Origin: Candidatus Cloacimonadota bacterium
Lineage (GTDB): Bacteria > Cloacimonadota > Cloacimonadia > Cloacimonadales > TCS61
Assembly: GCA_018400535.1 (NCBI GenBank)
Contig: JAGYMQ010000077.1
Location: 1-42,649 of the forward strand
Reading direction: 5' to 3'
Length of the DNA stretch: 42,649 nucleotides
Every line of letters starts with the position of its first letter. Positions within the stretch are counted from its first letter, which is position 1. Shown piece after piece: positions 3,292-18,259 of this stretch. The translations under genes were made by a program, and so were the position numbers. The notes beneath the pieces were generated by a model. The model saw nothing but the letters and a program-made list of their open reading frames with translations, ran no database searches and was not told the DNA's origin.

Positions 3292-4509
3292 ATGCCAAAA
3301 ACACCACGCGGAGAAAGATTGATCCTGACACTGACAGGCAGAAGAAATGCTGGCAAATCTTCTTTGATCAACGCGCTCATCGAACAAGAGGTAGCGATCG
3401 TTTCCGAAATTCCTGGCACAACGACCGACCCTGTTGCCAAATCTTTTGAATTGTTACCATTAGGTCCTGTTACTTTCTATGATACAGCAGGAATAGACGA
3501 CGTCGGAGAATTGGGAGAAAAACGGATAGCTCGCACAAGAAAGATCTTATTTCGCACAGATATAGCACTACTTATTGTCGATGCAAAAGGATTGCAAAAA
3601 GAAGATAAAAAATTCATCCAGGAAATTCAAGAAATGGGAATTCCCTTCGTGGTTGTTTTCAACAAGATCGACTTGCACAAACCTTCATCGACTGATAAAA
3701 ATTTTTGTGAAAATGAAAACGTAAAATTCTGTTCCGTTTCTGCAAACACAAAAGACGGGATTTCAGAGCTCAAGGAAATTTTGGTCAATCTTGCTCCTGC
3801 TCATTTGATGCACGAAAAAGTTTTGATCGGAGACATCATTCATCCTGGACAATTGATCTTGCTGATAGCTCCAATCGACCTGGCAGCTCCGAAAGGTCGT
3901 TTGATCTTACCACAGGTTCAAGTTCTGCGGGAAATTCTAGATAATGATGCTTTGGGAATGATCGTGAAAGAACGAGAGATCGAAGCAGCTTTTGAGCAAC
4001 TAAAAAATCCACCCGATCTGGTAATAACTGATTCGCAAGTAGTCTTGAAAGTTGCTGGCGATGTTCCTCCTGAGGTCGATCTCACAACTTTTTCCATTCT
4101 TTTTGCGCGTTACAAAGGTGATCTGGAAATTCTGAAAAAAGGTGCTGATCGCATCGATGAATTGAAAAATGGCGATAAAATTTTGATCGCTGAAACCTGC
4201 TCACACAGCGTGAATTGCGATGATATTGGCAGAGTAAAAATCCCACGTTGGCTAACGCAATACACAGGAAAAAAATTGGAATTCGAGGTAGCTGTTGGTC
4301 ACGATTTCCCTATCGATCTGGAAAAATATCAATTAGTTATTCACTGCGGTGCGTGCATGCTGAATCAGATGGAAATGGGAAGAAGAATCATCGAGGCTGA
4401 ACGAAGACATGTTCCTATCACAAATTATGGGATCACGATCTCCAAAGTGCAAGGCGTTCTGGAAAGAGTTTTAAAACCTTTAACAAAAGGATTGGAAATA
4501 ATTATTTAA
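3292..4509 (+). CDS. hydF: [FeFe]-hydrogenase maturation GTPase/scaffold HydF
   Basis: Scaffold protein that carries the 2Fe precursor and delivers it to apo-hydrogenase. The N-terminal GTPase has a P-loop 'GRRNAGKSS' at residues 16-24, a switch region with 'DTAG' and the base-recognition motif 'NKID'. The C-terminal cluster-binding signature is complete: Cys303-x-His305 ('CSH') and, 45 residues later, His351-Cys352-x2-Cys355 ('HCGAC'). This is the diagnostic CxH-x(44-53)-HCxxC pattern. The length of 405 is normal. It is the last gene of aspA-hydE-hydF; no strong terminator follows, only an A/T-rich stretch. Confidence 0.95.
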   Translation: MPKTPRGERLILTLTGRRNAGKSSLINALIEQEVAIVSEIPGTTTDPVAKSFELLPLGPVTFYDTAGIDDVGELGEKRIARTRKILFRTDIALLIVDAKGLQKEDKKFIQEIQEMGIPFVVVFNKIDLHKPSSTDKNFCENENVKFCSVSANTKDGISELKEILVNLAPAHLMHEKVLIGDIIHPGQLILLIAPIDLAAPKGRLILPQVQVLREILDNDALGMIVKEREIEAAFEQLKNPPDLVITDSQVVLKVAGDVPPEVDLTTFSILFARYKGDLEILKKGADRIDELKNGDKILIAETCSHSVNCDDIGRVKIPRWLTQYTGKKLEFEVAVGHDFPIDLEKYQLVIHCGACMLNQMEMGRRIIEAERRHVPITNYGITISKVQGVLERVLKPLTKGLEIII

Positions 4510-5537: not shown

Positions 5538-5567
5538 ACGATGAAGAATGTCTCCACTCTTCATCGT
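5538..5567 (-). terminator. rho-independent terminator after the lipoprotein gene
   Basis: On the minus strand ACGATGAAGA and TCTTCATCGT form a perfect 10-bp stem with a 10-base loop, followed directly by a run of nine or more T. It sits just after the stop of the lipoprotein gene and probably ends the sigma-54 operon that begins at 7472. Confidence 0.88.
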
Positions 5568-5575
5568 ATATACAA

Positions 5576-5983
5576 TTATTTAATCTTTATTCCTTTCCCG
5601 GTCACAGATACTGTGGTTTCTGTGTATAAAAAAGGAATACCGCTGACTTCTTTTGTGAACTTGGGACAAAGCATTGCATCAATATCTGAATTATTATTTA
5701 TTGCGTTATAGATAGCATTGCTTTTTGCCAGATCTATTGTTGATTGGGAAGTTAAATTCGAAGAAAGAAATCCAGATTTATTATAACCTTCGATGCGAAA
5801 CATTAAAAATGTTTTAACTGTTGCAGTTCCTGAAACATTTTTTACAATTTCATATTGTGAACTGGTTAAAGGTTCTAATTCTAAATTCTTTATTCCGACA
5901 GGTTGAACAGTATTATACCTTGCTGAACAACTAATTAAAACCAACATCATAAAACCTACTAAAACTAACAAACTCTTTTTCAT
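5576..5983 (-). CDS. small lipoprotein, possibly DUF6567/TRL-like
   Basis: The 135-residue precursor has a lipoprotein signal peptide with lipobox 'LISC', so the mature protein should be lipid-anchored in the envelope. The body has a repeated-strand look and ends 'ETTVSVTGKGIKIK'. The stretch 'AKSNAIYNAINNNSDIDAMLCPKF' resembles small lipoproteins of the DUF6567/TRL-like type from Bacteroidota; this is from memory and tentative. A clear GGAGG precedes the ATG at 5983. It lies 12 bp after the outer-membrane-like gene and is the last gene before the terminator, so it is probably part of the sigma-54-driven operon. Function unknown. Confidence 0.75.
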   Translation of the reverse strand: MKKSLLVLVGFMMLVLISCSARYNTVQPVGIKNLELEPLTSSQYEIVKNVSGTATVKTFLMFRIEGYNKSGFLSSNLTSQSTIDLAKSNAIYNAINNNSDIDAMLCPKFTKEVSGIPFLYTETTVSVTGKGIKIK

Positions 5984-5995
5984 TTTTCCTCCATA

Positions 5996-6646
5996 TTAAA
6001 ATTTTGCAGATATCCCGAATGAATACTGCATTCCTTCGTAAATATCTGTCATTTTTCTATTAAAATATTCTAGTTTAAACTCGGGTGAAGTATACCAAAA
6101 TTGTTCACTGATAGTATAATCTAAGCAAATATACTCACTTATATCGATTTTTAGTTGCAAGGATGTCTCAATTGAAGGCGAAAAATTTTCATCTCCACCA
6201 TCATATTCGTCTACAAACCAGAATGTTTCATATTCCTCTTCCCAATAGTACAGAACGAGATTAAAATTGTGTGTTACCTTCAAGTTAAGAAAATCAGTGA
6301 ATTGGAATGTTTTGCCAACAAAACAATCAAAATGATTTATATATTCTGTAAATTTCCAATCAGCACCTTTTTCTTCATTTACTAAATCATTGAAATGTAA
6401 TCCATAGTTAAGATAAGTGTTGTTGGAAAATAAAACTTCAATTCCATAACCACCAAAGTCTTTCATAGAAATGAATCTATACCTGCTAATAAATTCGTTA
6501 CTATTAACGTGGGTTTGTTGTGTATTATCCAAAGTATAAACTTCTAAACCTGCAACTGGAACAATCTGATCTTTGGTTTCTTGAGCAAAACTAAAAGTAA
6601 ATAGCAAAAGTAATAACAAAATCAGATATTTTCTTTTCTTTTTCAT
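5996..6646 (-). CDS. secreted outer-membrane beta-barrel-like protein
   Basis: The ORF track starts this frame at 6769, but ATG 6646 is preceded by a near-perfect TAAGGAGGTG and begins a signal peptide ('MKKKRKYLILLLLLLFTFSFAQ'). I take 216 residues as the protein. The mature part is rich in aromatic residues and alternating polar/hydrophobic strands, and it ends 'YSFGISAKF' with a terminal Phe as in outer-membrane barrels. No family was recognised. About 100 bp separate it from the DUF898-like gene; this gap carries an inverted repeat TGAGAA-N5-TTCTCA (6671-6687) that might fold in the mRNA. It is likely co-transcribed from the sigma-54 promoter at 7494-7510. Confidence 0.72.
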   Translation of the reverse strand: MKKKRKYLILLLLLLFTFSFAQETKDQIVPVAGLEVYTLDNTQQTHVNSNEFISRYRFISMKDFGGYGIEVLFSNNTYLNYGLHFNDLVNEEKGADWKFTEYINHFDCFVGKTFQFTDFLNLKVTHNFNLVLYYWEEEYETFWFVDEYDGGDENFSPSIETSLQLKIDISEYICLDYTISEQFWYTSPEFKLEYFNRKMTDIYEGMQYSFGISAKF

Positions 6647-6746: not shown

Positions 6747-7079
6747 TCAATATTTTTCAATATCGCCATGATCAGCGAAATAAAGATTATTTACCTGCCA
6801 TCTTTTTATTCTGCAAAAACCCCAGGGGAAATAAATTCCTACCGTGATGATCGTCAAAATGATCACGAGTAGAAAAGTGCCAAAAATTCCTAAACCTGTT
6901 CCTCTGAATACTAACTGTCTGCCATCAATAAACGTGCGTTCTGCGATCCATTTTTGTCTTGCTACATAAGCCCAAGGCCAAAAAAGTCCTGCCGTCAAAA
7001 CTGTTAGCAAATATGTCCAGATCACTAACCAAATGTAACTCAGTCCTTTCCCTTTGAATTCGAATTTTCCTGTCGGTAT
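6747..7079 (-). CDS. DUF898/YjgN-like membrane protein, apparent AUA start
   Basis: Two tandem units are visible, each with a 'F.GxG' strand, a hydrophobic helix and a 'PWxxxRxKxW' motif. The first has 'FEFKGKGLSYIW...LFWPWAYVARQKW' and the second 'LVFRGTGLGIFG...IYFPWGFCRIKRW'. This is typical of DUF898/YjgN-like proteins. The ORF track starts at GTG 7025, which would cut the first unit in half. The frame stays open upstream and an AGGAGG at 7090-7085 points to codon ATA at 7079 (or 7082). No ATG, GTG or TTG is suitably placed. Either a rare AUA start is used or one base is a mutation or sequencing error (ATA for ATG). Length is 110 residues with two membrane helices. It is the second gene of the sigma-54 operon. 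Confidence 0.7.
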   Translation of the reverse strand: MPTGKFEFKGKGLSYIWLVIWTYLLTVLTAGLFWPWAYVARQKWIAERTFIDGRQLVFRGTGLGIFGTFLLVIILTIITVGIYFPWGFCRIKRWQVNNLYFADHGDIEKY

Positions 7080-7115
7080 TATCTCCTCCTAATTTATTTC
7101 CCAAATTTTCTCATC

Positions 7116-7472
7116 TTAAATATGCCCCCCTTCCTCGAACCCCTTCAAATGATTTTTTAATTCACTAAGATCAAATTTAGTTTCCAGTTTGATGTAATTT
7201 GCCGTTTGAATAGTTGAGAAGAGATCCTTGAATTGTTTTTCAGCATGAACCAGAATTTTAATATTTTGAAAATTTTTGTTAAAATATTCCAATATCCCAA
7301 TGTCAGTTAATGAATGAATAAAAATAATGATAGCATCGATTCTTCTTCTATTAATGATCTTGATGGCTTGCTCCAGATCTTTTGCCATAAAAAATCTATG
7401 ATGCAGTTTTTGGGCAAATTCCTGCATCTCTGCCTTTTCTAAATTCGTCTTATCGATCACTAATATACTCAT
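7116..7472 (-). CDS. degenerate response-regulator receiver domain (pseudo-receiver)
   Basis: The 118-residue protein looks like a stand-alone receiver fold. It has 'ILVIDKT' at the position of the first strand, then 'DAIIIFIHS' and 'YIKLETKFDLSEL', where the last resembles the 'KPF' strand. The key acidic residues are missing: only one Asp (D7) remains of the acidic pair, and the phosphoacceptor position is Phe51 by alignment with the neighbouring regulator. It should therefore not be phosphorylated and may act through binding. GAGG precedes ATG 7472. It is the first gene behind a predicted sigma-54 promoter and lies just downstream of an NtrC-type regulator gene. The fold assignment is by eye; other Rossmann-like folds are possible. 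Confidence 0.65.
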   Translation of the reverse strand: MSILVIDKTNLEKAEMQEFAQKLHHRFFMAKDLEQAIKIINRRRIDAIIIFIHSLTDIGILEYFNKNFQNIKILVHAEKQFKDLFSTIQTANYIKLETKFDLSELKNHLKGFEEGGHI

Positions 7473-7493
7473 TTTTTCCTCGTATTGTTATCA

Positions 7494-7510
7494 AGCATTT
7501 TAAGTGCCAA
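7494..7510 (-). promoter_or_regulatory. predicted sigma-54 (-24/-12) promoter of the pseudo-receiver operon
   Basis: The minus strand reads TTGGCACTTAAAATGCT. It has the GG (-24) and GC (-12) doublets exactly 10 bases apart and a full TTGGCAC block. The predicted start of transcription is near 7484, leaving a short leader that still contains the ribosome binding site of the 7472 gene. Three inverted-repeat sites lie 65-210 bp upstream, where an NtrC-type activator would bind. Confidence 0.75.
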
Positions 7511-7574
7511 CTAGCTCATCTCTCTTTATAACAATAGCTTAGTTAATTATAGAGTCAGCTCAGACTAACAAATA

Positions 7575-7590
7575 TTCTCAAAAACGAGAA
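7575..7590. promoter_or_regulatory. inverted-repeat activator site 1 (TTCTC-N6-GAGAA)
   Basis: TTCTCAAAAACGAGAA has perfect 5-bp arms. The flanks (AATA...ATAA) match those of site 3. It lies about 90-105 bp upstream of the predicted transcription start near 7484, the usual range for sigma-54 enhancers. Confidence 0.6.
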
Positions 7591-7688
7591 ATAATGTTAA
7601 TTTTTCAAATCGGTAAAATTTGTTTGTTTTTTTTATCTTCTTTTTCTATAGACTCTTACGAGGAAATTTTCATTAACTGCTCAATTAT

Positions 7689-7704
7689 TTCTCATAATCA
7701 AGAA
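7689..7704. promoter_or_regulatory. inverted-repeat activator site 2, degenerate
   Basis: TTCTCATAATCAAGAA fits the TTCTC-N6-GAGAA pattern with one mismatch in the right arm. It is 18 bp from the start of site 3, so the two form a tandem pair. Confidence 0.45.
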
Positions 7705-7706
7705 TA

Positions 7707-7722
7707 TTCTCAATAACGAGAA
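7707..7722. promoter_or_regulatory. inverted-repeat activator site 3 (TTCTC-N6-GAGAA)
   Basis: TTCTCAATAACGAGAA has perfect arms and differs from site 1 at one base. It lies in the gap between the regulator gene (stop at 7740) and its presumed target operon, about 225-240 bp upstream of the predicted transcription start. Confidence 0.6.
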
Positions 7723-7739
7723 ATAAAATAGGCCAAAAT

Positions 7740-9113
7740 TTATTTAGCTGTTAATGATATTTTATATTTTTTTAATCTGCGTGTCATTGCATCATTTTTG
7801 ATACCAAGAAGTTTTGCTGCTCTTCCTTTATGTCCAGCTGTTCTCTCCAATGCTTTCAGGATCAATTGCTTTTCATTTTTATCCAGATTCAAGTCTTGCT
7901 CTTCGAAATTTTCTTCTTTCTCTAATAAAGTGGGAAAATGCTGCAAATACAAATAGCCATTTTCCGATAAGATCAGCGCATGTTCGATCATATTTTTGAG
8001 CTCTCTCACATTACCAGGGAAAGGATAATCCAGCAATTTTTCTTTTATTTCAGATGATAAAGGCTGGATTTTTCTTTTCATATTTTTGGCGAAAAAACCG
8101 ATAAAATATTCGGTCAGGATGGGAATATCCTCTTTCCTTTTGCGTAGCGGTGGGATAATAAAATTAAATCTATTCAATCTATCGAAAAGATCAGCGCGAA
8201 ATTTTCCTTCTTTGACCTGCTTTTTGATATCATGATTTGTGGCAGCAATAATGCGGACATCCACTTCAATTTCCTGATGACTACCGATCTTTCTGATCTT
8301 TTTATCTTCTAATACTCTCAGTAATTTTGCTTGCAAATTTAAAGACATATCGCCGATCTCATCCAAAAATAATGTGCCGTGATTTGCTGTTTCAAAGCAA
8401 CCAGCTTTGTCCTCGAAGGCTCCAGTGAAAGCACCTTTTTTATGTCCAAAGAATTCGCTTTCAAAAAGATTATCTGCGATCGACGAACAATTTATCGGAT
8501 AAAAAATATTATTTTTTCTGGAGCTGGAACAGTGAATTGCCCTGGCAACCAATTCTTTTCCTGTTCCACGCTCACCTTGGATCAAAACAGAAGTGGAATC
8601 TGTCATTGCCAGTTTCCTGATGCGAGTCAACAAATTCATGACCGTTTTACTTTTTCCCACAATTTTGTAACCGAATTTTTCATCCAGTAATTTGGAAAGT
8701 GCGTCATATTTCAATTCAAGTTGTTTGATCTTTCCCATTTTTTCAGAGAAAATTTTTGTGCGCATGATCGAGTTCCTGATAGATTCAGGAAGGAGCGGTT
8801 TTTCCAGAAAATCAGCAGCACCTTTTCGCAAGGCAAGCAACACATTTTCTTTGTTGCCTTCTGCTGTCATTATAATCACTTCGGTTTCAGGAAAATCAGT
8901 TTTGATCTCTTGTAAAAAATCGAGTCCATTTTTATCGGGCAATATAATATCCAGGAAAACAAGATCGATTTTCTCTGCTTTTATCAACTGCTTTGCTTCT
9001 CCAGCAGTTTCTGCCAACATAGTCGAATAACCCAAGAAACGTAGAGTTTCTAGTGTTTCTAATAAAAAATTTTTATCATCATCGATAAGCAATATTTTCA
9101 GATTTTTTTCCAT
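7740..9113 (-). CDS. NtrC-family sigma-54-dependent response regulator
   Basis: Three domains are visible in 457 residues. The N-terminal receiver has acidic residues D11-D13, phosphoacceptor D55 ('FLDIILPD') and the conserved Lys in 'LEKPL'. The AAA+ sigma-54 activator domain has Walker A 'GERGTGKE', a canonical 'GAFTGA' loop and Walker B 'GTLFLDEIGD'. A Fis-type helix-turn-helix is at the end ('GHKGRAAKLLGIKNDAMTRRLKK'). It is expected to activate sigma-54 promoters when phosphorylated by the kinase encoded immediately upstream (9201-11435, same strand). A predicted sigma-54 promoter with inverted-repeat sites follows the gene, so the downstream operon is the natural target (inference). AAGGTGA precedes ATG 9113. 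Confidence 0.93.
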   Translation of the reverse strand: MEKNLKILLIDDDKNFLLETLETLRFLGYSTMLAETAGEAKQLIKAEKIDLVFLDIILPDKNGLDFLQEIKTDFPETEVIIMTAEGNKENVLLALRKGAADFLEKPLLPESIRNSIMRTKIFSEKMGKIKQLELKYDALSKLLDEKFGYKIVGKSKTVMNLLTRIRKLAMTDSTSVLIQGERGTGKELVARAIHCSSSRKNNIFYPINCSSIADNLFESEFFGHKKGAFTGAFEDKAGCFETANHGTLFLDEIGDMSLNLQAKLLRVLEDKKIRKIGSHQEIEVDVRIIAATNHDIKKQVKEGKFRADLFDRLNRFNFIIPPLRKRKEDIPILTEYFIGFFAKNMKRKIQPLSSEIKEKLLDYPFPGNVRELKNMIEHALILSENGYLYLQHFPTLLEKEENFEEQDLNLDKNEKQLILKALERTAGHKGRAAKLLGIKNDAMTRRLKKYKISLTAK

Positions 9114-9200: not shown

Positions 9201-11435
9201 TCAAATTCTATTTAAAATAAGGCGAAAGATCGTGAATTTTTCCGGTTCACTTTCTACCTCGATCTTTCCTTTCATATCTTGCACAAATTGTTCGACAAGC
9301 GGCAGTGCCAATCCTGTTCCAACCTCTTTTGTGGAATAGAACGGTTCGAAGATCTTTTTTTGATCATTTTTTGCGATTCCGATACCGTTATCTTCAATTT
9401 CCAGAATAAGTTTATCTTTCTTCGAAAAGGTTCTGATCATTATCTTTTTTGCAAATTTTCTTTCAGGATATTTTGCATTTTTTTCCTGAATTGCATCGAT
9501 CGCATTGGAAACAAAAGTTAATAGAATATGATTGAAATTATCTTTGTTACCGATCGCAAAAAGTTCGTTTTCAGCCAGTTTTAATTCTAATTCAATGTGA
9601 TATTTTTTCATTTCGAAATCAAGAATGGAACACGTTTTTCGCAATAAATGATTAACAGCTAATTTATGCAAACTGATCCTGATATCTTCTCTGATATATG
9701 CTCGCAGATTTTCATAATATTTTTGGATTTCACCATTATAGCTGCGCAATTGTTTGATCTTTTTTCGTAAATAAGTTTTATCCAGATCATCATCCATCGA
9801 AAGTTCGATATTGCTCAGGTTCATATCAATATTGATCGAAAGCGGTCTGATCTTGTGCGAGAAGCCAGAAGCGATGCGACCAAAAATTTCCATTCTTGAT
9901 TTGCGTTCCAAAAGCAAATTTTGCTGTGAATTTTTTAAATTGATCTTATAATAGATCGCCGCAGCAATTGATATTATAGCGATCAATAAAATTATAAAAA
10001 AAAGAAGCAGAAATTTTTGTTTGGAAATTTGGTTAGTTTTAAATTCATTCTCTTTTTTTAACAATTGATTTTCCTTTTCTTTTTCTTTGGTCTCATATTT
10101 CAATTGCAGATCGTGGAATGTCTTTTCGTTATCCAAAGCGTTCAGGCTGTCTTTCAGCGCGAGTAACTTTTTCTGGAAAGTAAACGCACTGGCAAAATCT
10201 TCCAGGTCTTCATAGATAATGATAAGATTCTTATAACTGTCTGAAATGTTTTTTATCAAATCGTATTCTTCTGCTAACATCAAGCTTTTTTGGAAATATT
10301 TTTCAGCTTCTTTTTTATCTCCTTTTTTACTGCTAATAATTCCCAGATTCATATAATTTTGTGTGATGCCTTCTTTATCTTCCAATTTTTGGTTGATTTC
10401 GAGAGATCTATCCAGATATTTTTTTGCCAGATCATATTTTTCAAAATCAAGATTTAATACAGCAATATTATTCAACGACCGTGCTAAGCCATATTGATCA
10501 CCGAGTTCTTCTTCCATAACCAAAGATTTTTCTGCGTAGAAAAGTGCCTTATCATAATCATTGATCTTTTTGTATAATAGCGAAACATTGTTGTAATCAA
10601 AAGCCAGCCTCCGCTTAAGTCCGATCTTTTTTTCAATCTCGATCGCTTGCTGAAAATACTTCAGAGCATTATCATAATTTCCCATACCATAATTGGAAAT
10701 ACCGAGATTGGAATAGATCACTTCTCGATCATTAAAATAATCGTTCTTTTCGGATAAGTTTAATGCTTTCAGGAAATATTCAAGGGCGTCAGAATGTTGC
10801 TTCTTCATATCATGCAAACGTCCGAGCGAAACATAATTACGGATAAGCAATTCATCGTTTTTCATCATTTTTGTCAAAGTTATATTTTGTTGGATAAATT
10901 GCTCAGCAGTCACATAATATCCTTTTTCCAGATAGATATTACCAATATTTTTCAGATTGTATGAAAGCCCCAAACTATCCTTGATCTCCTGATTTAAATC
11001 TTTCGCGTTTAGATAATATTCCAAAGCTTTGTCCTTTTCGCCCAGAATATTGCAGATCGCACCAAGATTATTCAAAGAAGCTGAATAAGAGTTTTGATCA
11101 TGATTATCTTCTGCATAGTGAAGTATTTCTTCAAAGAGTTTTTTTGCTTGTGAGTATTCACCAGAGAAATAATGTGCCATTGCCAGATTTTTGGTGGATT
11201 TTTGTTCGCCCTGGGAATATTTGATTTTCCGGGAAATCTCCAATGCTCTTTCCGCATATTCTTTTGTCTTTTGTAGATCTTTCTTCAGAAAGCTTTTCGA
11301 TAATTTATTCAGGACATCGACTTTTTCGATCCTTTCAGCATTTTCCAGAACAATTAAGAGACTATCTATTTCTGCATTTTCAGCTAAAAGAGAACCTAAA
11401 ATAAAAAATATGAATAATGAAATTATTTTTTCCAC
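9201..11435 (-). CDS. TPR-repeat sensor histidine kinase
   Basis: The 744-residue protein starts with a signal-like hydrophobic segment, then about eight TPR repeats (about residues 40-430, e.g. 'ALEYYLNAKDLNQEI', 'ALKYFQQAIEIEKKI') that should lie outside the inner membrane. A coiled coil and one membrane helix (about 476-498) follow. The kinase part has the presumed phosphoacceptor His527 in 'GFSHKIRPLSI', an N box 'SNAIDAI', G1 'DNGIGI' and G2 'GTGLAL'. The H-box is atypical: the acidic residue usual after His is Lys. GTG 11435 is the start, preceded by AGGTGAGG. The partner is the NtrC-type regulator 87 bp downstream. The TPR part suggests sensing of protein or peptide partners (inference). 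It is paralogous in layout to the divergent kinase at 11678. Confidence 0.88.
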   Translation of the reverse strand: MEKIISLFIFFILGSLLAENAEIDSLLIVLENAERIEKVDVLNKLSKSFLKKDLQKTKEYAERALEISRKIKYSQGEQKSTKNLAMAHYFSGEYSQAKKLFEEILHYAEDNHDQNSYSASLNNLGAICNILGEKDKALEYYLNAKDLNQEIKDSLGLSYNLKNIGNIYLEKGYYVTAEQFIQQNITLTKMMKNDELLIRNYVSLGRLHDMKKQHSDALEYFLKALNLSEKNDYFNDREVIYSNLGISNYGMGNYDNALKYFQQAIEIEKKIGLKRRLAFDYNNVSLLYKKINDYDKALFYAEKSLVMEEELGDQYGLARSLNNIAVLNLDFEKYDLAKKYLDRSLEINQKLEDKEGITQNYMNLGIISSKKGDKKEAEKYFQKSLMLAEEYDLIKNISDSYKNLIIIYEDLEDFASAFTFQKKLLALKDSLNALDNEKTFHDLQLKYETKEKEKENQLLKKENEFKTNQISKQKFLLLFFIILLIAIISIAAAIYYKINLKNSQQNLLLERKSRMEIFGRIASGFSHKIRPLSINIDMNLSNIELSMDDDLDKTYLRKKIKQLRSYNGEIQKYYENLRAYIREDIRISLHKLAVNHLLRKTCSILDFEMKKYHIELELKLAENELFAIGNKDNFNHILLTFVSNAIDAIQEKNAKYPERKFAKKIMIRTFSKKDKLILEIEDNGIGIAKNDQKKIFEPFYSTKEVGTGLALPLVEQFVQDMKGKIEVESEPEKFTIFRLILNRI

Positions 11436-11677
11436 AACCTCACCTATCAGGACAAAAATTTAAAAATATATCTGTTTAGAAAAAATTGGAAGTTAATATT
11501 GTCAAAGAAAAAAAAGGAAAGTAGAAAAGCGGGAAGAATTTGCAATGTTGAATTTTTTCTATTTTGAGTTATTTGCAAAGATAAAAAATTCTATCACGAA
11601 TATTTTTATAAATTGACGAATGAGAAACTGTTCATTCAATGCCCTACAAAAGAAAAATGTTAATGGAAAGCTCGATT
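11436..11677. promoter_or_regulatory. divergent intergenic region between the two sensor kinase genes
   Basis: A/T-rich gap of about 200-240 bp from which both kinase/regulator modules are read outward. I see no -24/-12 element and no copy of either inverted-repeat motif, so the regulators do not appear to control their own operons from here. A TTGACA on the minus strand lacks a convincing -10 at normal spacing. Confidence 0.4.
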
Positions 11678-13699
11678 ATGTATTGTTCAAATTTAAAAAA
11701 GATATTGATCATCATGATTTTGTTGATCGGAAACATTTCGTTTATACATTCTGACGAAGATCACCAATATAAAGAAAGGTTCTTGCAGATGATCGACAGC
11801 GCCAGAGAATTGAACAATGAGAATAAAATTGAAGAGAGCATATCCAAATATGATGAGGCAATTACTTTTGCGGAAAAATCTGGTCTGAACAAAATTCTGC
11901 AAAAATATTATCTGGAAATTGCAAATCTTTGTTTTGATAATCTGCGAAATGAAAAAGCGATCAGTTACTATTCAAAATGTTTGTCTATTACAGATAAAGA
12001 AAAAGATAATGTGATTTTGAATTGTCTGAATTCTCTTGGAGCAGCTAATATCAAGATCGGAGAATATGAAAAAGCAATCGCCTATCTTTTGGAAGCTCTG
12101 CAACTTATTGATACACCAAAAACACAGCTTCATTCAAAGATATTAAATGGATTAGGCGTGGTGCATATAAAAATTTCTGATCATGAAACTGCGTTACGCT
12201 ATTTGAGTTCAGCTTTGGCTTTGATACCCGCTTCAGAAATTTCATCTACAAAAGCTTATCTTCTCAATAACATCGGAATTTGTTATCATAATCTGGATAA
12301 AAATGAAAAAGCAGCAGACAATTATAATCGAGCAATTGCGATCTGGAGAAAGATCGAAGACAAAAAAGGGCTTGGAATGACCTATTCCAATCTATCCACG
12401 ATTTTTAAAGAAGCAGGAAACAATCAGCAAGCAATAGAATATTTAAAAAAATCTTTAGAATATAAAAAAAATGAAAAATCTTCTGAATCAATTATTTTTT
12501 CTTTTCTGAATTTAGGTGAAATTTACATCCAAAGCGAAAATCTGGAAGAAGCAGAATTCTATTTGAAACAGGCTTTGCTAAAAGCAAAAAAATCCGATAA
12601 TCTCGATCTGAAAAAATCAGCTTTTCTACTGATGGCAAGATTTTATGAAGCTCAAAAAAATGATGAACAAGCCTTGAAACAGTATAAAAAATATATTGAG
12701 ATAAAAGATTCTCTGCTCAATAAAACGATCAGTAAACAGATCCGTGAATTGCAGATCAAATATAATTCTGAACAACAAAAGCAGGAAATCGAACGCTTCA
12801 AATTGGAACAGGAAAAAAATCGTTTGATCAGAACCAGATTGATCCTTATTATTATCCTTATAATATTGATCCTACTTTTCTATTATTATCAATTTCGGAC
12901 AAAGAAAAAGACAAATCAGAAATTGGAAAAAGAGATAAATATCAAAACAGCAGATTTGATGAAAACAAATATTGAACTGGAAAAAGAGATCGCTGAACGC
13001 AAAAAAATGCAAGCTGAATTGATAAAATCGGAAAGACTTGCCGCAATCGGTGAAATGGCGTCGATCGTCGCTCACGAGATCAGAAATCCGATAACTGCTT
13101 TGAGATCAACTGCACAATTTTGTGAAAATAATTTTACCTCGATCTCCGAAAATAAAATGAAAAAAATGATGAATATTTTCACAGAAACGACTGATCGCGT
13201 AGGGAAAATATTGAAAGATCTTTTGGATTATTCCAAACCAGAACCTAAAAATTTTATTGTTATTGATCTGGTCGATCTGCTCAAAAAAAATATTTCTATG
13301 GTCGAAGACAAATGCCAGAAGAATGAGATCGATATCTGTCTGAATACAAATCGTGCGAACATCAAAGCAAAAATCAATGTAGAACAATTCAACGGAGCAA
13401 TTTTGAATCTGCTTTTAAATGCGATCGAAGCTATCGAAAAAAAAGGAAAATTGCAGATCAATCTAATCGAAAAAAAATCCAAAATAATTTTGGAAATCGA
13501 AGATAATGGCTGCGGTATCGATCAAAAACTGCTCGATAAAGTATTCCAACCCTTTTTCACTACAAAATCGACGGGAAGCGGTTTGGGACTGGCATACGTG
13601 CAAAAAATAGTTAATTTTCACAATGGCGAAATAAGAATTTTCAGCAAAAAGAACAAAGGAACAAAATTCCAAATAATCTTAGGTGGAGAAAATGAATGA
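11678..13699 (+). CDS. TPR-repeat sensor histidine kinase, paralogous module
   Basis: The frame opens at ATG 11639. I prefer ATG 11678, preceded by GGAAAG, because it begins a compact export signal ('MYCSNLKKILIIMILLIGN'); neither start has a strong ribosome binding site. TPR repeats fill roughly the first half (e.g. 'ALRYLSSALALIP', 'AIEYLKKSLEYKK'). A membrane helix ('LIIIILIILILLFYYYQF') and a coiled coil follow. A canonical HisKA box 'AHEIRNPITALRS' holds His479 in ORF numbering. The ATPase domain has 'NLLLNAIEAI', 'DNGCGI' and 'GSGLGLAYV'. It overlaps the next regulator gene by 8 bp, so the two form one operon. It has the same plan as the divergent kinase but with an intact H-box. Confidence 0.9.
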   Translation: MYCSNLKKILIIMILLIGNISFIHSDEDHQYKERFLQMIDSARELNNENKIEESISKYDEAITFAEKSGLNKILQKYYLEIANLCFDNLRNEKAISYYSKCLSITDKEKDNVILNCLNSLGAANIKIGEYEKAIAYLLEALQLIDTPKTQLHSKILNGLGVVHIKISDHETALRYLSSALALIPASEISSTKAYLLNNIGICYHNLDKNEKAADNYNRAIAIWRKIEDKKGLGMTYSNLSTIFKEAGNNQQAIEYLKKSLEYKKNEKSSESIIFSFLNLGEIYIQSENLEEAEFYLKQALLKAKKSDNLDLKKSAFLLMARFYEAQKNDEQALKQYKKYIEIKDSLLNKTISKQIRELQIKYNSEQQKQEIERFKLEQEKNRLIRTRLILIIILIILILLFYYYQFRTKKKTNQKLEKEINIKTADLMKTNIELEKEIAERKKMQAELIKSERLAAIGEMASIVAHEIRNPITALRSTAQFCENNFTSISENKMKKMMNIFTETTDRVGKILKDLLDYSKPEPKNFIVIDLVDLLKKNISMVEDKCQKNEIDICLNTNRANIKAKINVEQFNGAILNLLLNAIEAIEKKGKLQINLIEKKSKIILEIEDNGCGIDQKLLDKVFQPFFTTKSTGSGLGLAYVQKIVNFHNGEIRIFSKKNKGTKFQIILGGENE

Positions 13700-15044
13700 T
13701 GCAAAAATTTTGATCGTAGATGATGAAGAACACATTCTCTTCATTCTCACTGAACTTCTGATAAAACAAGGTTATCAAGTTATCAAAGCAAAAGATGGCA
13801 GAACAGCTTTAAATATTTTTCGGCAAAAACAACCACAGATCGTTTTATTAGATTATAAATTGCCTGATCTCAGTGGAATCGAAATTTTGAAGAAGATCAC
13901 ATCAGATCAAAAATATTCGGAAGTGATCATGATGACAGCGCATGGCAATATTGAACAAGCTGTAACTTCTATGAAATTAGGTGCTTATTATTATTTAACG
14001 AAACCTTTCAATAATGATGAGATCATTTTGCAGATAAAAAATGCTCTAGAAAAGATCAGCTTAAAACAGAAAATAGTTTCTCTTCAAAACCAATTATCTT
14101 CAGCAAAAAAAAATTCTCTTTTGATCGGAGATAGTAAAGCTTTGCATAACATTTTGGAACAGATACAGATCGTGGCGAAGAATGACATTGCAGTTTACAT
14201 TGAAGGAGAAACAGGAACAGGAAAAGACCTGATCGCAAGATCTATTCACGAAAAAAGTGATCGCAAAAAAAATCCTTATGTAGCTGTCGATTGTGGCGCG
14301 ATCCCGCCCACGCTGTTTGAAGCGGAAATGTTTGGTTATGAAAAAGGAGCATTTACCGATGCAAAATTATCTCGCATAGGAAAATTTGAACAAGCAAATA
14401 CTGGTACTATTTTTTTGGATGAGATCACGAATTTATCGCTCGATATGCAAGCAAAGCTGTTGCGCGTCATACAAAATAAAAAAATTTCCAGGATCGGTAG
14501 TAAAAAAGAAATTGCAATTGACGTTAGGATCATTTCTGCCAGCAATCAAAATATCCTGAAAAAAGTAGAAGAAAAAAAATTTCGCAATGATATTTTTTAT
14601 CGTATCTGCGAATTCAAGATCGACGTTCCAGCACTGAAAGAAAGAAAAGAAGATATTCCAATTTTGGTTAACAATTTCATCAAAAAATATGCGATAGAAT
14701 TCCAAAAAAAAGTAGTTGGCATCACACCTGAAGCTCTGCAGAAAATGATCAATTTTGATTGGCCAGGCAATGTGAGAGAACTGATAAACGTGATCAAACG
14801 CGCCGTTTTGGTTTCCAATTCTGATAAGATCGATTGTGATGCGATCAGTTTCATTAATCTCGCTCAGAACGATATCTTTGAGGATAACAATTATTTTGAT
14901 CTTAAAAAAATCGATGCCGAAGCAGACCGTAAGAAAAAAATGCTGATCCAAAGAAAGATCGAAGAATTGAAAGGGAACAAAACTCAAGCTGCCAAAGAAT
15001 TGAAGATCAGCCGCAATAAACTTTATGAACTATTGAATTCATAA
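13692..15044 (+). CDS. NtrC-family sigma-54-dependent response regulator with GAFTDA loop
   Basis: The receiver has D10, D11 and phosphoacceptor D54 ('LLDYKLPD'), and the Lys in 'LTKPF'. The AAA+ domain has Walker A 'GETGTGKD' and Walker B 'GTIFLDEITN'. The sigma-54 contact loop reads 'GAFTDA' instead of GAFTGA. A C-terminal Fis-type helix-turn-helix is seen in 'GNKTQAAKELKISRNKLYELL'. ATG 13692 (with GGTGGAGA upstream) is preferred over GTG 13683. The gene overlaps the kinase stop, so they are translationally coupled. Tandem 20-bp inverted-repeat sites begin 7 bp after its stop codon, and a sigma-54 promoter lies just before the next gene, which is its likely target. It is paralogous to the regulator at 7740-9113. 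Confidence 0.93.
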   Translation: MNDAKILIVDDEEHILFILTELLIKQGYQVIKAKDGRTALNIFRQKQPQIVLLDYKLPDLSGIEILKKITSDQKYSEVIMMTAHGNIEQAVTSMKLGAYYYLTKPFNNDEIILQIKNALEKISLKQKIVSLQNQLSSAKKNSLLIGDSKALHNILEQIQIVAKNDIAVYIEGETGTGKDLIARSIHEKSDRKKNPYVAVDCGAIPPTLFEAEMFGYEKGAFTDAKLSRIGKFEQANTGTIFLDEITNLSLDMQAKLLRVIQNKKISRIGSKKEIAIDVRIISASNQNILKKVEEKKFRNDIFYRICEFKIDVPALKERKEDIPILVNNFIKKYAIEFQKKVVGITPEALQKMINFDWPGNVRELINVIKRAVLVSNSDKIDCDAISFINLAQNDIFEDNNYFDLKKIDAEADRKKKMLIQRKIEELKGNKTQAAKELKISRNKLYELLNS

Positions 15045-15050
15045 TTGTTG

Positions 15051-15109
15051 TTGTTTGATTTTTACAACAATTGTTTGGATTATAAAACAATCTTTCATTT
15101 TATCAACAA
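15051..15109. promoter_or_regulatory. tandem activator sites, TTGTT-N10-AACAA
   Basis: Two directly abutting 20-bp copies are TTGTTTGATTTTTACAACAA (15051-15070) and TTGTTTGGATTATAAAACAA (15071-15090). Both have perfect TTGTT/AACAA arms separated by 10 bases. A third, degenerate copy (15 of 20 matches, right arm intact) covers 15090-15109. They lie 105-165 bp upstream of the predicted sigma-54 transcription start, as expected for enhancer sites of the upstream regulator. A 9-bp stem (15043-15051 with 15064-15072) could alternatively form in RNA, but it is all A/T-rich and has no T-tract. Confidence 0.6.
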
Positions 15110-15186
15110 ATTTTAATTTTATACGAAATTAGAGTATCCAACTGGTATCAAAGAAAATAAACTCCCCAAAAAATTTTTAACTTGGT

Positions 15187-15203
15187 TTGGCATTCCGATT
15201 GCA
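15187..15203 (+). promoter_or_regulatory. predicted sigma-54 (-24/-12) promoter of the secreted-protein gene
   Basis: TTGGCATTCCGATTGCA matches TGGCAY-N5-TTGCA, with GG at 15189-15190 and GC at 15201-15202 ten bases apart. Transcription would start near 15214, just before the GGAGG that serves ATG 15239. Confidence 0.82.
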
Positions 15204-15238
15204 GGCTAAAATGAAAAAAATGTTTTTGGAGGATGTTT

Positions 15239-18200
15239 ATGAAACAAAAATTGATCGTTTTTCTTGTGATTCTATTTTATGGAAGTTTGTTTTCCTTGCA
15301 GACTACAAATTTCACAGAAACTGATGGGATAATTCAGAGTGATAAGATACTTGATGTTTTCTATTACAATACGCAAAATGATAATATTGCAGATAACTGG
15401 CGGACAGATAATTCTCTTAGCTGGTATAATGAGCCAGCAAATCCCAGCGATGAATTCACGGGAACTATAGATAACAATCGCTGGCAATCGATGGGAGATG
15501 TAACGCTTTCTGACGGAATTGTGGAATATTCGGGAAGCTGCTCCTATTCAATTGATGGCACACCAACGAACGGTGCTTTATATTCTCAAGGCAAATGGAA
15601 TTTCAGCGGAGATTTCAATATCCAAATAAGTTACAGCGATTTCGTTGCTGATAATGGAAGTGGGATCAGGCTGGAAATCAAAGATGATGGACTTCCTCAA
15701 AATTATTTTCTCTTCGTGGAAAGAGTCGTGCAAAATGATGGAACACATCAATATTGCCGAAATGACCACAATAATAATTTTGCTTCGGTCAATACTGCAG
15801 CGACCGAAGGAAGATTGCGCATTGAGAGATCGGGCACAAATGTAACGACATATTATGGTTATTGGGACGAAGGTTCTGGCGTGGATGAAGATCGTTGGAA
15901 ATGGACAACAATTGGTTCTGCATTAAATTTCGGTGATCATGATATTTACGTGAAAATTTTCACCGTGGGAACTGATAACGAAAAGTCAGTTGCTGTCGAT
16001 GTCGATAATTTTATCGCTTCATTTTCTGCAGGAAGCTGTAATTTTACTAATCTTGGTAGCAATTCCAGAAGCACAACTAAAGCATTTCCTGAACAAACCA
16101 TTCTTGTTGCAACTGATAAAGGATTAGATATCATCGATGCTTCTGATAACACATTGTGGATGAGGTTTAAAAATTATGATAAAGATCGCAACGATGCTGA
16201 AGATCAAAATATGGTCGTAGATACTTTGAATACGATCTTTGCTTTGAACGGAAGGATCTATTGTGGAGCTTATGAAGGTTATATGGCTGGATTAGGCGTA
16301 ATAGATTTCACTCAGGATAAATGCTGGTTTTATGATTCTCACATTGAAGATGGAACAGGCTGGGATTGTCTGGCTGATATTTCTGAAAGGAATATGCATC
16401 GAGGATGGACAGACAATTCCAGCACCTATACACAGATACAAAGTTATGAAGTTTATGACATCAGTGTAAAAGTGATCGATGATGGTAGAGCAGAAAAAAC
16501 TTTTGTTGCTCTGGGACAAGGTGTGTCTGAAGGTGGTTCTAATTCATCAGTGTGTGTTGTAAATATCGATGATAATTCTGCGAGTTATGACATTATTCAA
16601 GGTTATAGCGATCCAGTGATCTCAGTGGATTTTGGAATAAATGATTATCTCTATTATATGACGAGAAGCAGATTGCATAATTCTTATACAGATTATCAGA
16701 ATTCGGGAGAATTTGTTCCAGATAATTCCGTCTCGATCGCTACGCCGACTGATCGCGTGGGAGCCGAACTGGTTACTTCTGATGCAAATCTTTTTATCGC
16801 TGAAAAAGATATTATCACACCTCTGAATTCTGGGTCTGCTACCAGAAGAGCACTATCAGATTTCTCCATTCAAACCACTTATAATGTTTCTCCTTCTTCA
16901 ATTTTGTGGGGTTCTTCTTCCTGCTCTGCTCTGGCTACAAATAATAATGCACTTTTTATCGCCACGAATCACAGTTCGGAAGGCAGGATCTATGTCGTTG
17001 GATTGACTGCTCCAGACGATGATCAGGTGCGTGGAGAATTTAATTATCCCTCAATTCTCTCATCACCTGATATTGCTGGAATAACTTTTGGTTCTGCAAC
17101 TGATGAAGAAAATCTTTTTGTCTTTTATGGAAACAACTCTGGTTTGACCAGAATTGTTGGCAACGATGCAGAGCTTACTATGCAAGAACCTTTCGAAGGA
17201 GAAATACGTCATCAATTTACTGATGGAAATGCTTTTACCTATGATTTTGCTAATGTCACTTTGACGCTTGATCCTGCTGATGCTCGCGCTGAATATGGAG
17301 AGATAGCTGTCACCCTATATAATGATGCACCAAACGTGCAAAATCCTGATAACGCGATCGAAAGCTGGTTCGAAATCGAGGCAGAAACTGGTTTTGACGC
17401 ATTACCACTTGATGTAAGATTTGAGATCGATGAAACCATCGCTCCTGTCGGATCAGATAATCTAATACTTTTCTCTTCTGAAACTGCTTTACCTGGAAGT
17501 TGGACAACGCATAATGAAGATCCAGAAGTCACTGTCACAGAATGGCATTATGATGAACAACCCTACTACGTTGATTTCCAAACTAATCATTTTTCTGCAT
17601 GGGGAACTTCTAATGGAAGTGGTGATACTCCATTACCAGTCACTTTATCAAATTTCTATGTCGAATTGCATGAAAATCCAATTTTACACTGGATAACAGA
17701 ATCTGAAACAGAAAATGCCTGTTGGAATATCTATCGTAGCATGTCCACAGATTTGGAAAATGCACTTTGGTTGAATAATAATGAAGTTATCGTCGGACAC
17801 GGCACGACAACTATGTCTTCAGAATATGAATATATGGATAATTATCCTATACAAGGTGGAGTTACTTATTGGTATTGGCTGGAATCGATCGATCTCACTG
17901 GAAACAGCGAACACTTTGGTCCAATCCAGTTAAACATCCCTGAAGGTGGTGGTAATGATGATCCACCCACGATTCCCTATGAATTTGGACTCTTCCAAAA
18001 TTATCCTAATCCTTTCAATCCGAACACAAATATTCGTTTTACTTTGAAAAATGACAGTTTTTGCAAATTGACGATCTTTAATATCAAAGGTGAAAAAGTT
18101 TACACTCTCTTTGATGGTCTGGCAAGCAAAAATCAAATCTACAATTGTGTTTGGAATGGAAAAGATGAGAATGCAAAAAATGTTGGCAATGGAATATATT

Positions 18201-18259
18201 TTTATCGTATCGAAACCGATAATTTTATTTCCACAAAAAAAATGTTAATGATCAAATAA
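15239..18259 (+). CDS. large secreted protein with C-terminal FlgD/T9SS-like sorting domain
   Basis: ATG 15239 is six bases after GGAGG and is preferred over ATG 15233; it gives 1006 residues. A signal peptide ('MKQKLIVFLVILFYGSLFS') is followed by a jelly-roll-like region at about residues 60-265 (starting near 'DEFTGTIDNNRWQSMGD'). That region resembles LamG/DUF1349-type sugar-binding modules. A propeller-like central region ('ILVATDKGLDIIDASDNTLW') comes next, then a fibronectin-like segment. The C-terminal sorting domain begins 'FGLFQNYPNPFNPNTNIRF' and ends 'NGIYFYRIETDNFISTKKM'. It should be exported and either surface-attached or released. It sits alone between a sigma-54 promoter and a terminator, directly after the kinase/regulator pair. 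No catalytic motif was recognised. Confidence 0.85.
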   Translation: MKQKLIVFLVILFYGSLFSLQTTNFTETDGIIQSDKILDVFYYNTQNDNIADNWRTDNSLSWYNEPANPSDEFTGTIDNNRWQSMGDVTLSDGIVEYSGSCSYSIDGTPTNGALYSQGKWNFSGDFNIQISYSDFVADNGSGIRLEIKDDGLPQNYFLFVERVVQNDGTHQYCRNDHNNNFASVNTAATEGRLRIERSGTNVTTYYGYWDEGSGVDEDRWKWTTIGSALNFGDHDIYVKIFTVGTDNEKSVAVDVDNFIASFSAGSCNFTNLGSNSRSTTKAFPEQTILVATDKGLDIIDASDNTLWMRFKNYDKDRNDAEDQNMVVDTLNTIFALNGRIYCGAYEGYMAGLGVIDFTQDKCWFYDSHIEDGTGWDCLADISERNMHRGWTDNSSTYTQIQSYEVYDISVKVIDDGRAEKTFVALGQGVSEGGSNSSVCVVNIDDNSASYDIIQGYSDPVISVDFGINDYLYYMTRSRLHNSYTDYQNSGEFVPDNSVSIATPTDRVGAELVTSDANLFIAEKDIITPLNSGSATRRALSDFSIQTTYNVSPSSILWGSSSCSALATNNNALFIATNHSSEGRIYVVGLTAPDDDQVRGEFNYPSILSSPDIAGITFGSATDEENLFVFYGNNSGLTRIVGNDAELTMQEPFEGEIRHQFTDGNAFTYDFANVTLTLDPADARAEYGEIAVTLYNDAPNVQNPDNAIESWFEIEAETGFDALPLDVRFEIDETIAPVGSDNLILFSSETALPGSWTTHNEDPEVTVTEWHYDEQPYYVDFQTNHFSAWGTSNGSGDTPLPVTLSNFYVELHENPILHWITESETENACWNIYRSMSTDLENALWLNNNEVIVGHGTTTMSSEYEYMDNYPIQGGVTYWYWLESIDLTGNSEHFGPIQLNIPEGGGNDDPPTIPYEFGLFQNYPNPFNPNTNIRFTLKNDSFCKLTIFNIKGEKVYTLFDGLASKNQIYNCVWNGKDENAKNVGNGIYFYRIETDNFISTKKMLMIK

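Follow-up and report, generated by a model that had tools for sequence, protein, structure and literature searches.

The window analysed here, a stretch of 42,649 nucleotides, belongs to a Candidatus Cloacimonadota MAG with a genome of 2.62 Mb, which carries rpoN (Sigma54_DBD at C123:6675, E 9e-49) and 18 strong sigma-54 activator domains. On the minus strand, a gap of 267 bp separates a regulator gene (9113-7740) from the gene of a 118-aa protein downstream (7472-7116), and this gap holds a -24/-12 element at 7510-7494 together with three dyads (7707-7722, 7689-7704 and 7575-7590). The features of the locus are given below; centres of sites are counted from the transcription start predicted at ca. 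7483, which was set from the -12 C.

5538..5567, minus strand: intrinsic terminator from the terminator scan, probably the operon end
5576..5983, minus strand: DUF6567 protein with a lipobox-like N-terminus (Pfam, alignment)
5996..6646, minus strand: signal-peptide protein, probably of the outer membrane, its start placed by AAGGAGGTGCGAATG; without match in Pfam or NCBIfam
6747..7025, minus strand: DUF898-like membrane protein, presumably encoded by the second gene of the operon; the reading frame continues upstream but has no ATG there
7116..7472, minus strand: pseudo-receiver of 118 aa, with a predicted receiver-like fold, without acceptor Asp and with one acidic residue missing
7478..7481, minus strand: putative Shine-Dalgarno sequence GAGG in the 11-nt leader before the ATG at 7472
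7494..7510, minus strand: predicted sigma-54 -24/-12 promoter TTGGCACTTAAAATGCT, at the same place before the pseudo-receiver gene in relatives
7572..7592, minus strand: putative proximal UAS, dyad C, ATTTCTCGTTTTTGAGAATAT, core 7575-7590, centre -99.5, a position found phylum-wide
7687..7707, plus strand: putative distal UAS, dyad B, ATTTCTCATAATCAAGAATAT, core 7689-7704 with one mismatch, centre ca. -213.5
7704..7724, minus strand: putative distal UAS, dyad A, ATTTCTCGTTATTGAGAATAT, core 7707-7722, centre ca. -231.5
7740..9113, minus strand: NtrC-family response regulator (Pfam: receiver, sigma-54 activation domain with GAFTGA, Fis-type HTH)
9201..11435, minus strand: TPR histidine kinase with a transmembrane segment and H-box GFSHKIRPLS, presumed partner of the regulator
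15048..15091, plus strand: tandem dyads TTGTTGT..ACAACAA / ATTGTTT..AAACAAT, a parallel, different putative UAS (pair score matched by 6/100 shuffles)
15187..15203, plus strand: second predicted sigma-54 promoter TTGGCATTCCGATTGCA, before the T9SS-tail protein 15233-18259

By its domains and residues the regulator is an NtrC-family two-component enhancer-binding protein, with the acidic triad and acceptor Asp in its receiver, an AAA+ domain carrying GAFTGA, and a Fis HTH. It stays well below the curated NCBIfam cut-offs for AtoC (365.4 vs 714), PrsR (354.1 bits vs 502.6), NtrC and ZraR, none of which is reached. In the kinase, Pfam recognises the TPR and HATPase domains and misses the H-box. 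The 118-aa protein, for which neither Pfam nor NCBIfam gave a match, has in alignment a replaced acceptor Asp, an incomplete acidic pair and His in place of Thr. Its predicted structure (pLDDT 81.8) alternates strands and helices and finds receivers as its best PDB matches, with E ca. 5e-5 but with TM ca. 0.6 and high rmsd; a receiver-like fold has moderate support. The genes behind it are three small envelope genes rather than a giant secreted protein, with the terminator at 5567-5538 after them, and spacing and strand suggest that 7472-5538 forms one operon. At the DUF898-like gene (6747-7091, minus strand) AGGAGGAG is present, and the expected start has no ATG (GAGGAGATAATACCG...), pointing to either a non-AUG start or an assembly error.

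The original prediction placed a sigma-54 promoter with correct GG/GC spacing directly before the first gene of this operon. Both points hold: the element reads from 7510 to 7494 on the minus strand, and its predicted start leaves an 11-nt leader, unstructured according to RNA folding, before the ATG. Genome-wide there are only ten occurrences of the strict pattern TTGGCAYNNNNNWTGCW, two of them within the window, and more loosely sigma-54-like elements also arise in the window by chance. A GG/GC element, an rpoN gene in the host and repeated upstream sites at the usual enhancer distance place the predicted promoter among the ordinary members of the known sigma-54 enhancer promoter kind.

Two perfect copies and one near-perfect copy of TTCTC-N6-GAGAA had been described upstream, and they are found at 7575-7590, at 7707-7722 and, with one mismatch, at 7689-7704; the perfect sites differ at a single base, as had been said. 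The likeness is longer than had been recognised, since dyads A, B and C all fit the 21-mer ATTTCTCRTWWTYRAGAATAT (C and A on the minus strand, B on the plus strand), whose best match elsewhere in the 2.62-Mb genome has two mismatches and is intragenic. Dyads A and B lie in opposite orientations 18 bp apart, centre to centre, and C lies 114 bp from this pair. The claim that identical arms are improbable by chance is sustained by shuffling. With any 5-bp arms and a spacer of 0-10 allowed, 91 out of 5000 dinucleotide-shuffled versions of the 229-bp gap contained a perfect pair with the same arms and the same spacer (1.8%), and 22 contained such a pair together with another, near-perfect copy (0.44%). 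A pair score for likeness and symmetry, which pairs A with C, was matched by 0/100 shuffles of the 300-bp promoter, and a differently weighted score of the same idea by 1/100. A looser statistic, three 21-mer copies with up to 6 mismatches, was dropped because 39 of 200 shuffles of this A/T-rich gap qualify.

The short core itself is not rare, with 11 perfect matches genome-wide vs 4 for the reversed control pattern, and it is the clustering of the dyads that is unusual. A motif scattered over the genome without relation to promoters would speak against the prediction; in the genome-wide scan, eight of the nine other perfect matches were intragenic and one intergenic, and a good sigma-54 promoter was found near none of the nine, which had only two weak elements nearby (scores 13.3 and 13.9). 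Between dyad C and the promoter no consistent IHF-like element was found, and a weak one lies at about the same offset in six clade-A promoters.

Relatives of the 118-aa protein occur as standalone members throughout the phylum, in a family that is unnamed in Pfam and NCBIfam. These pseudo-receivers lack the acceptor aspartate, and intact receivers stand at the same place on contig C59 of the same genome and in genome G005. A sigma-54 promoter lies 32-63 nt upstream of the start codon in 19 of the 23 standalone Asp-less members, vs 0/23 on the opposite strand, and most of these members adjoin a histidine kinase and an NtrC-type regulator. Of 52 loci with regulator homologues, 13 have a same-strand sigma-54 promoter in the 700 bp downstream, and 0/52 have one on the opposite strand. 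The pseudo-receiver is absent from the two genomes of the same genus, and among Bacteroidales regulator loci no convincing pseudo-receiver module was seen, the sole strong match (L109) being from Cloacimonadota. The gene downstream is elsewhere often that of a giant secreted protein, with type IX tails, beta-helix or laminin-G domains, or, on C59, a C25-peptidase protein. The C59 locus (L199, 1-9837) has a sigma-54 promoter, the intact receiver in place of the pseudo-receiver, and then a C25 (gingipain-type) peptidase protein of 2623 aa. In five genomes the order is kinase, enhancer and promoter, pseudo-receiver, regulator, which would imply autoregulation there. In L239, L240, L241 and L243 (genomes G111, G110, G108 and G113) pseudo-receiver and regulator apparently share one transcript, which starts from a sigma-54 promoter located behind the kinase gene, so that in that clade the autoregulation would be positive.

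The position of the proximal dyad is shared among these modules. For each promoter, the best pair of like, symmetric 16-mers was sought blindly, with positions counted from the start predicted by the -12 C. In 18 of 19 pseudo-receiver promoters the paired dyads were matched by at most 2/100 shuffles, and in 15 of 19 one member of the pair was centred within 2.5 bp of -99, vs 6.9% in shuffles. The 15 modules represent only five of the seven clades distinguished, so that the independent evidence is less than the raw count and still far from chance. Two more promoters (G114 and G075) have a dyad at -99 outside the best pair. A position-averaged palindrome score without the repeat criterion was too weak at -99 (z ca. 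2.5, with similar values at other positions), and the blind repeated-dyad score was used instead. Distal dyads elsewhere are at -180/-204 or at -190, depending on the clade, and those of the window at -213 and -231 do not coincide with them. Dyad C, at -99.5, occupies the place at which related modules have enhancer dyads of different sequence, which supports the predicted arrangement of a sigma-54 promoter with three sites before the pseudo-receiver operon. In the closest relative of the window's module (L013 of G014, 3598-4000), there are two candidate enhancers: TCGTTTCCG-like repeats in tandem, at about -100 to -140, and, apart from these, an inverted pair TGAAATCYCGAGTCGRGTTTTGA directly behind the regulator.

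Sigma-54 promoters directly behind regulators are also found in the same genome on C59, C93, C117 and C111, with dyads of unrelated sequence: TCGCACA-C-TGTGCGA on C59, GAACGATWTCGTTC on C93, GGTCRTWWACGTCC-like on C117 and TRTCTCAATYTGAYA on C111. On C117 (L194, 4703-5175) three such dyads precede the promoter at -119.5, -209.5 and -308.5, ca. 90-99 bp apart, a different regular spacing. The window itself holds, at 11639-18259, a second and divergent TPR kinase-NtrC pair of the same layout without a pseudo-receiver; its regulator (13683-15044) lies within 6 kb of the first, and the tandem dyads and promoter behind it precede the gene of a protein of 1008 aa that carries a type IX sorting tail. 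The -99 position was not found in the promoters of this genome that lack a pseudo-receiver, namely those of C117, C111 and the second pair.

The sequence of the dyads varies with the DNA-binding helix of the adjacent regulator. Regulators with the helix (I/T)TRT(S/G)LNR, or with the ISRTSLNR variant of G034, go with GAACG-N4-CGTTC sites, and those with ISRSALNR go with TTGNYCGAWATCGAACAA-like sites, which are kept in five species with less conserved flanks, while the helix IKNDAMTRR of the window is alone with TTCTC-N6-GAGAA. The closest HTH to it in other loci is identical at 25 of 41 positions, and the window's dyad is thus apparently without a close orthologue for footprinting. Distances among regulators and among pseudo-receivers are strongly correlated (Mantel r = 0.87, 0/5000 permutations), and the window's pair resembles that of G014 more than it does the one on C93 in the same genome, so that the correlation does not reflect species descent only. 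Since, where it can be traced, dyad sequence follows the regulator helix at constant position, TTCTC-N6-GAGAA most likely constitutes the enhancer of regulator 7740-9113, which would bind it.

It is unlikely that the promoter is real and the dyads are bound by another protein, such as a dimeric repressor or the regulator at 13683-15044. TTCTC-N6-GAGAA is a generic inverted repeat, there are two NtrC-type regulators within 6 kb and the assignment at this particular locus rests on position; however, directly behind the second regulator lie tandem dyads and a sigma-54 promoter of its own, the dyads being different, dyad sequence tracks the helix of the adjacent regulator in two other clades, and dyad C occupies the shared enhancer position. 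Very unlikely, in our view, is that the A-B pair forms an RNA hairpin ending the kinase-regulator transcript, which would leave C, or nothing, as a protein site. The 61-nt stretch with A and B does fold at -16.3 kcal/mol, a value as low being reached by 0/200 shuffles, but two similar dyads that face each other are expected to fold back in this way, there is no U-run after the hairpin, and the terminator scan was negative there. Moreover, a terminator would not account for C, which lies 114 bp away and matches the 21-mer consensus shared by A and B, and the combination of a distal with a proximal dyad recurs in related promoters.

That the similarity arose by chance, in a gap rich in A/T, seems to us extremely improbable. 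The 1.8% of shuffles with some same-arm dyad pair and the sigma-54-like elements that occur at random in the window would fit such an origin, but it does not accommodate the full 21-mer in three copies or the placement of C, and the family of the next gene nearly always has a sigma-54 promoter and parallel modules exist. We therefore take the dyads to be, very probably, part of a sigma-54 promoter with its enhancer, driven by the kinase 9201-11435 and the regulator 7740-9113 and transcribing the pseudo-receiver and three envelope genes.

Phosphorylation, enhancer assembly, looping and opening of the polymerase are established for NtrC-type activators. Here, the TPR histidine kinase would sense a signal and phosphorylate the regulator, which would oligomerise on the dyads behind its own gene, A and B being distal and C proximal. 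The DNA would then presumably loop, allowing the AAA+ domain of the regulator to open sigma-54 RNA polymerase at 7510-7494, and the resulting transcript would cover the pseudo-receiver and the three small envelope genes and end at 5567-5538. The pseudo-receiver would belong to the signalling part, where it would assist or compete with the kinase or the regulator independently of phosphorylation: since it is constant while the cargo varies, and since it and the regulator co-evolve, one of these two proteins is its most likely point of action. Directly visible in the sequences are the promoter and its sites, their conserved geometry and the co-variation with the regulator. A wider reading is possible rather than probable and is put forward tentatively, namely that this is a duplicated, phylum-wide cassette in which a standalone pseudo-receiver, as first product of its own sigma-54 promoter, would exert phosphorylation-free feedback on kinase or regulator, in which the proximal site would keep its helical position as its sequence changes along with the recognition helix, and in which each cassette, insulated from its paralogues, would control its own surface or secreted protein.

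Activator genes are usually near their targets and have repeated inverted sites (PMC6615313, PMC4641369), and at glnA the sites are at ca. -90 and -140, with a flexible distance and a helical dependence in some cases (PMC7408454, PMC4740811). Like NtrC-glnA and other sigma-54 promoters (PMC7408454, PMC6615313, PMC4641369), the locus described here has a -24/-12 element, dyads at least ca. 100 bp upstream and an activator with AAA+ and Fis HTH domains. It differs in that the target is a standalone pseudo-receiver operon, that the enhancer is located between the stop codon of the activator and the target, and that the position of the proximal dyad is nearly fixed across lineages. The PEP-CTERM system PrsK-PrsR (PMC1569441) is also a two-component system with an NtrC-type regulator, in which a 17-nt motif 1, sometimes repeated, precedes the sigma-54 promoter of sorted surface proteins. 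There, one motif serves many genes at varying spacing (mean 62.8, S.D. 10.6 nt), whereas here there is apparently one motif per pair, only one target was found for the window's pair, and the window's regulators score 354.1 and 401.9 against the PrsR cut-off of 502.6. Clustered distances between tandem sites and the sigma-54 promoter are also known from the Vibrio qrr enhancers of LuxO (PMC4740811), but there the lengths cluster in steps of ca. 11 bp, while here one distance is kept and the sequence of the site changes. Known two-component control linked to the T9SS likewise ties a two-component system to this secretion system, but it operates through an ECF sigma factor on secretion components, and here it would be through sigma-54 on adjacent cargo.

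No description of the cassette was found in the open-access literature, to which the search was confined, and a phylum-wide module of kinase, NtrC regulator, fixed-distance enhancer, pseudo-receiver and, usually, a giant secreted protein appears to be undescribed. What is new is the cassette around the promoter, with a pseudo-receiver and an enhancer at a nearly fixed position; the promoter itself is ordinary. The near-fixed position at -99 stands out because sigma-54 enhancers are usually described as distance-tolerant (PMC7408454). The mode of action of pseudo-receivers, a type defined in PMC12632262, is an open question, for which those of the cassette offer a genetically defined case. Since activator, DNA site and target are adjacent many times within one phylum, each Fis-type domain is paired with its likely site, and the recognition code may become readable by comparison. 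Most cassettes would also point to the secreted protein that is controlled, in a phylum of mostly uncultured bacteria.
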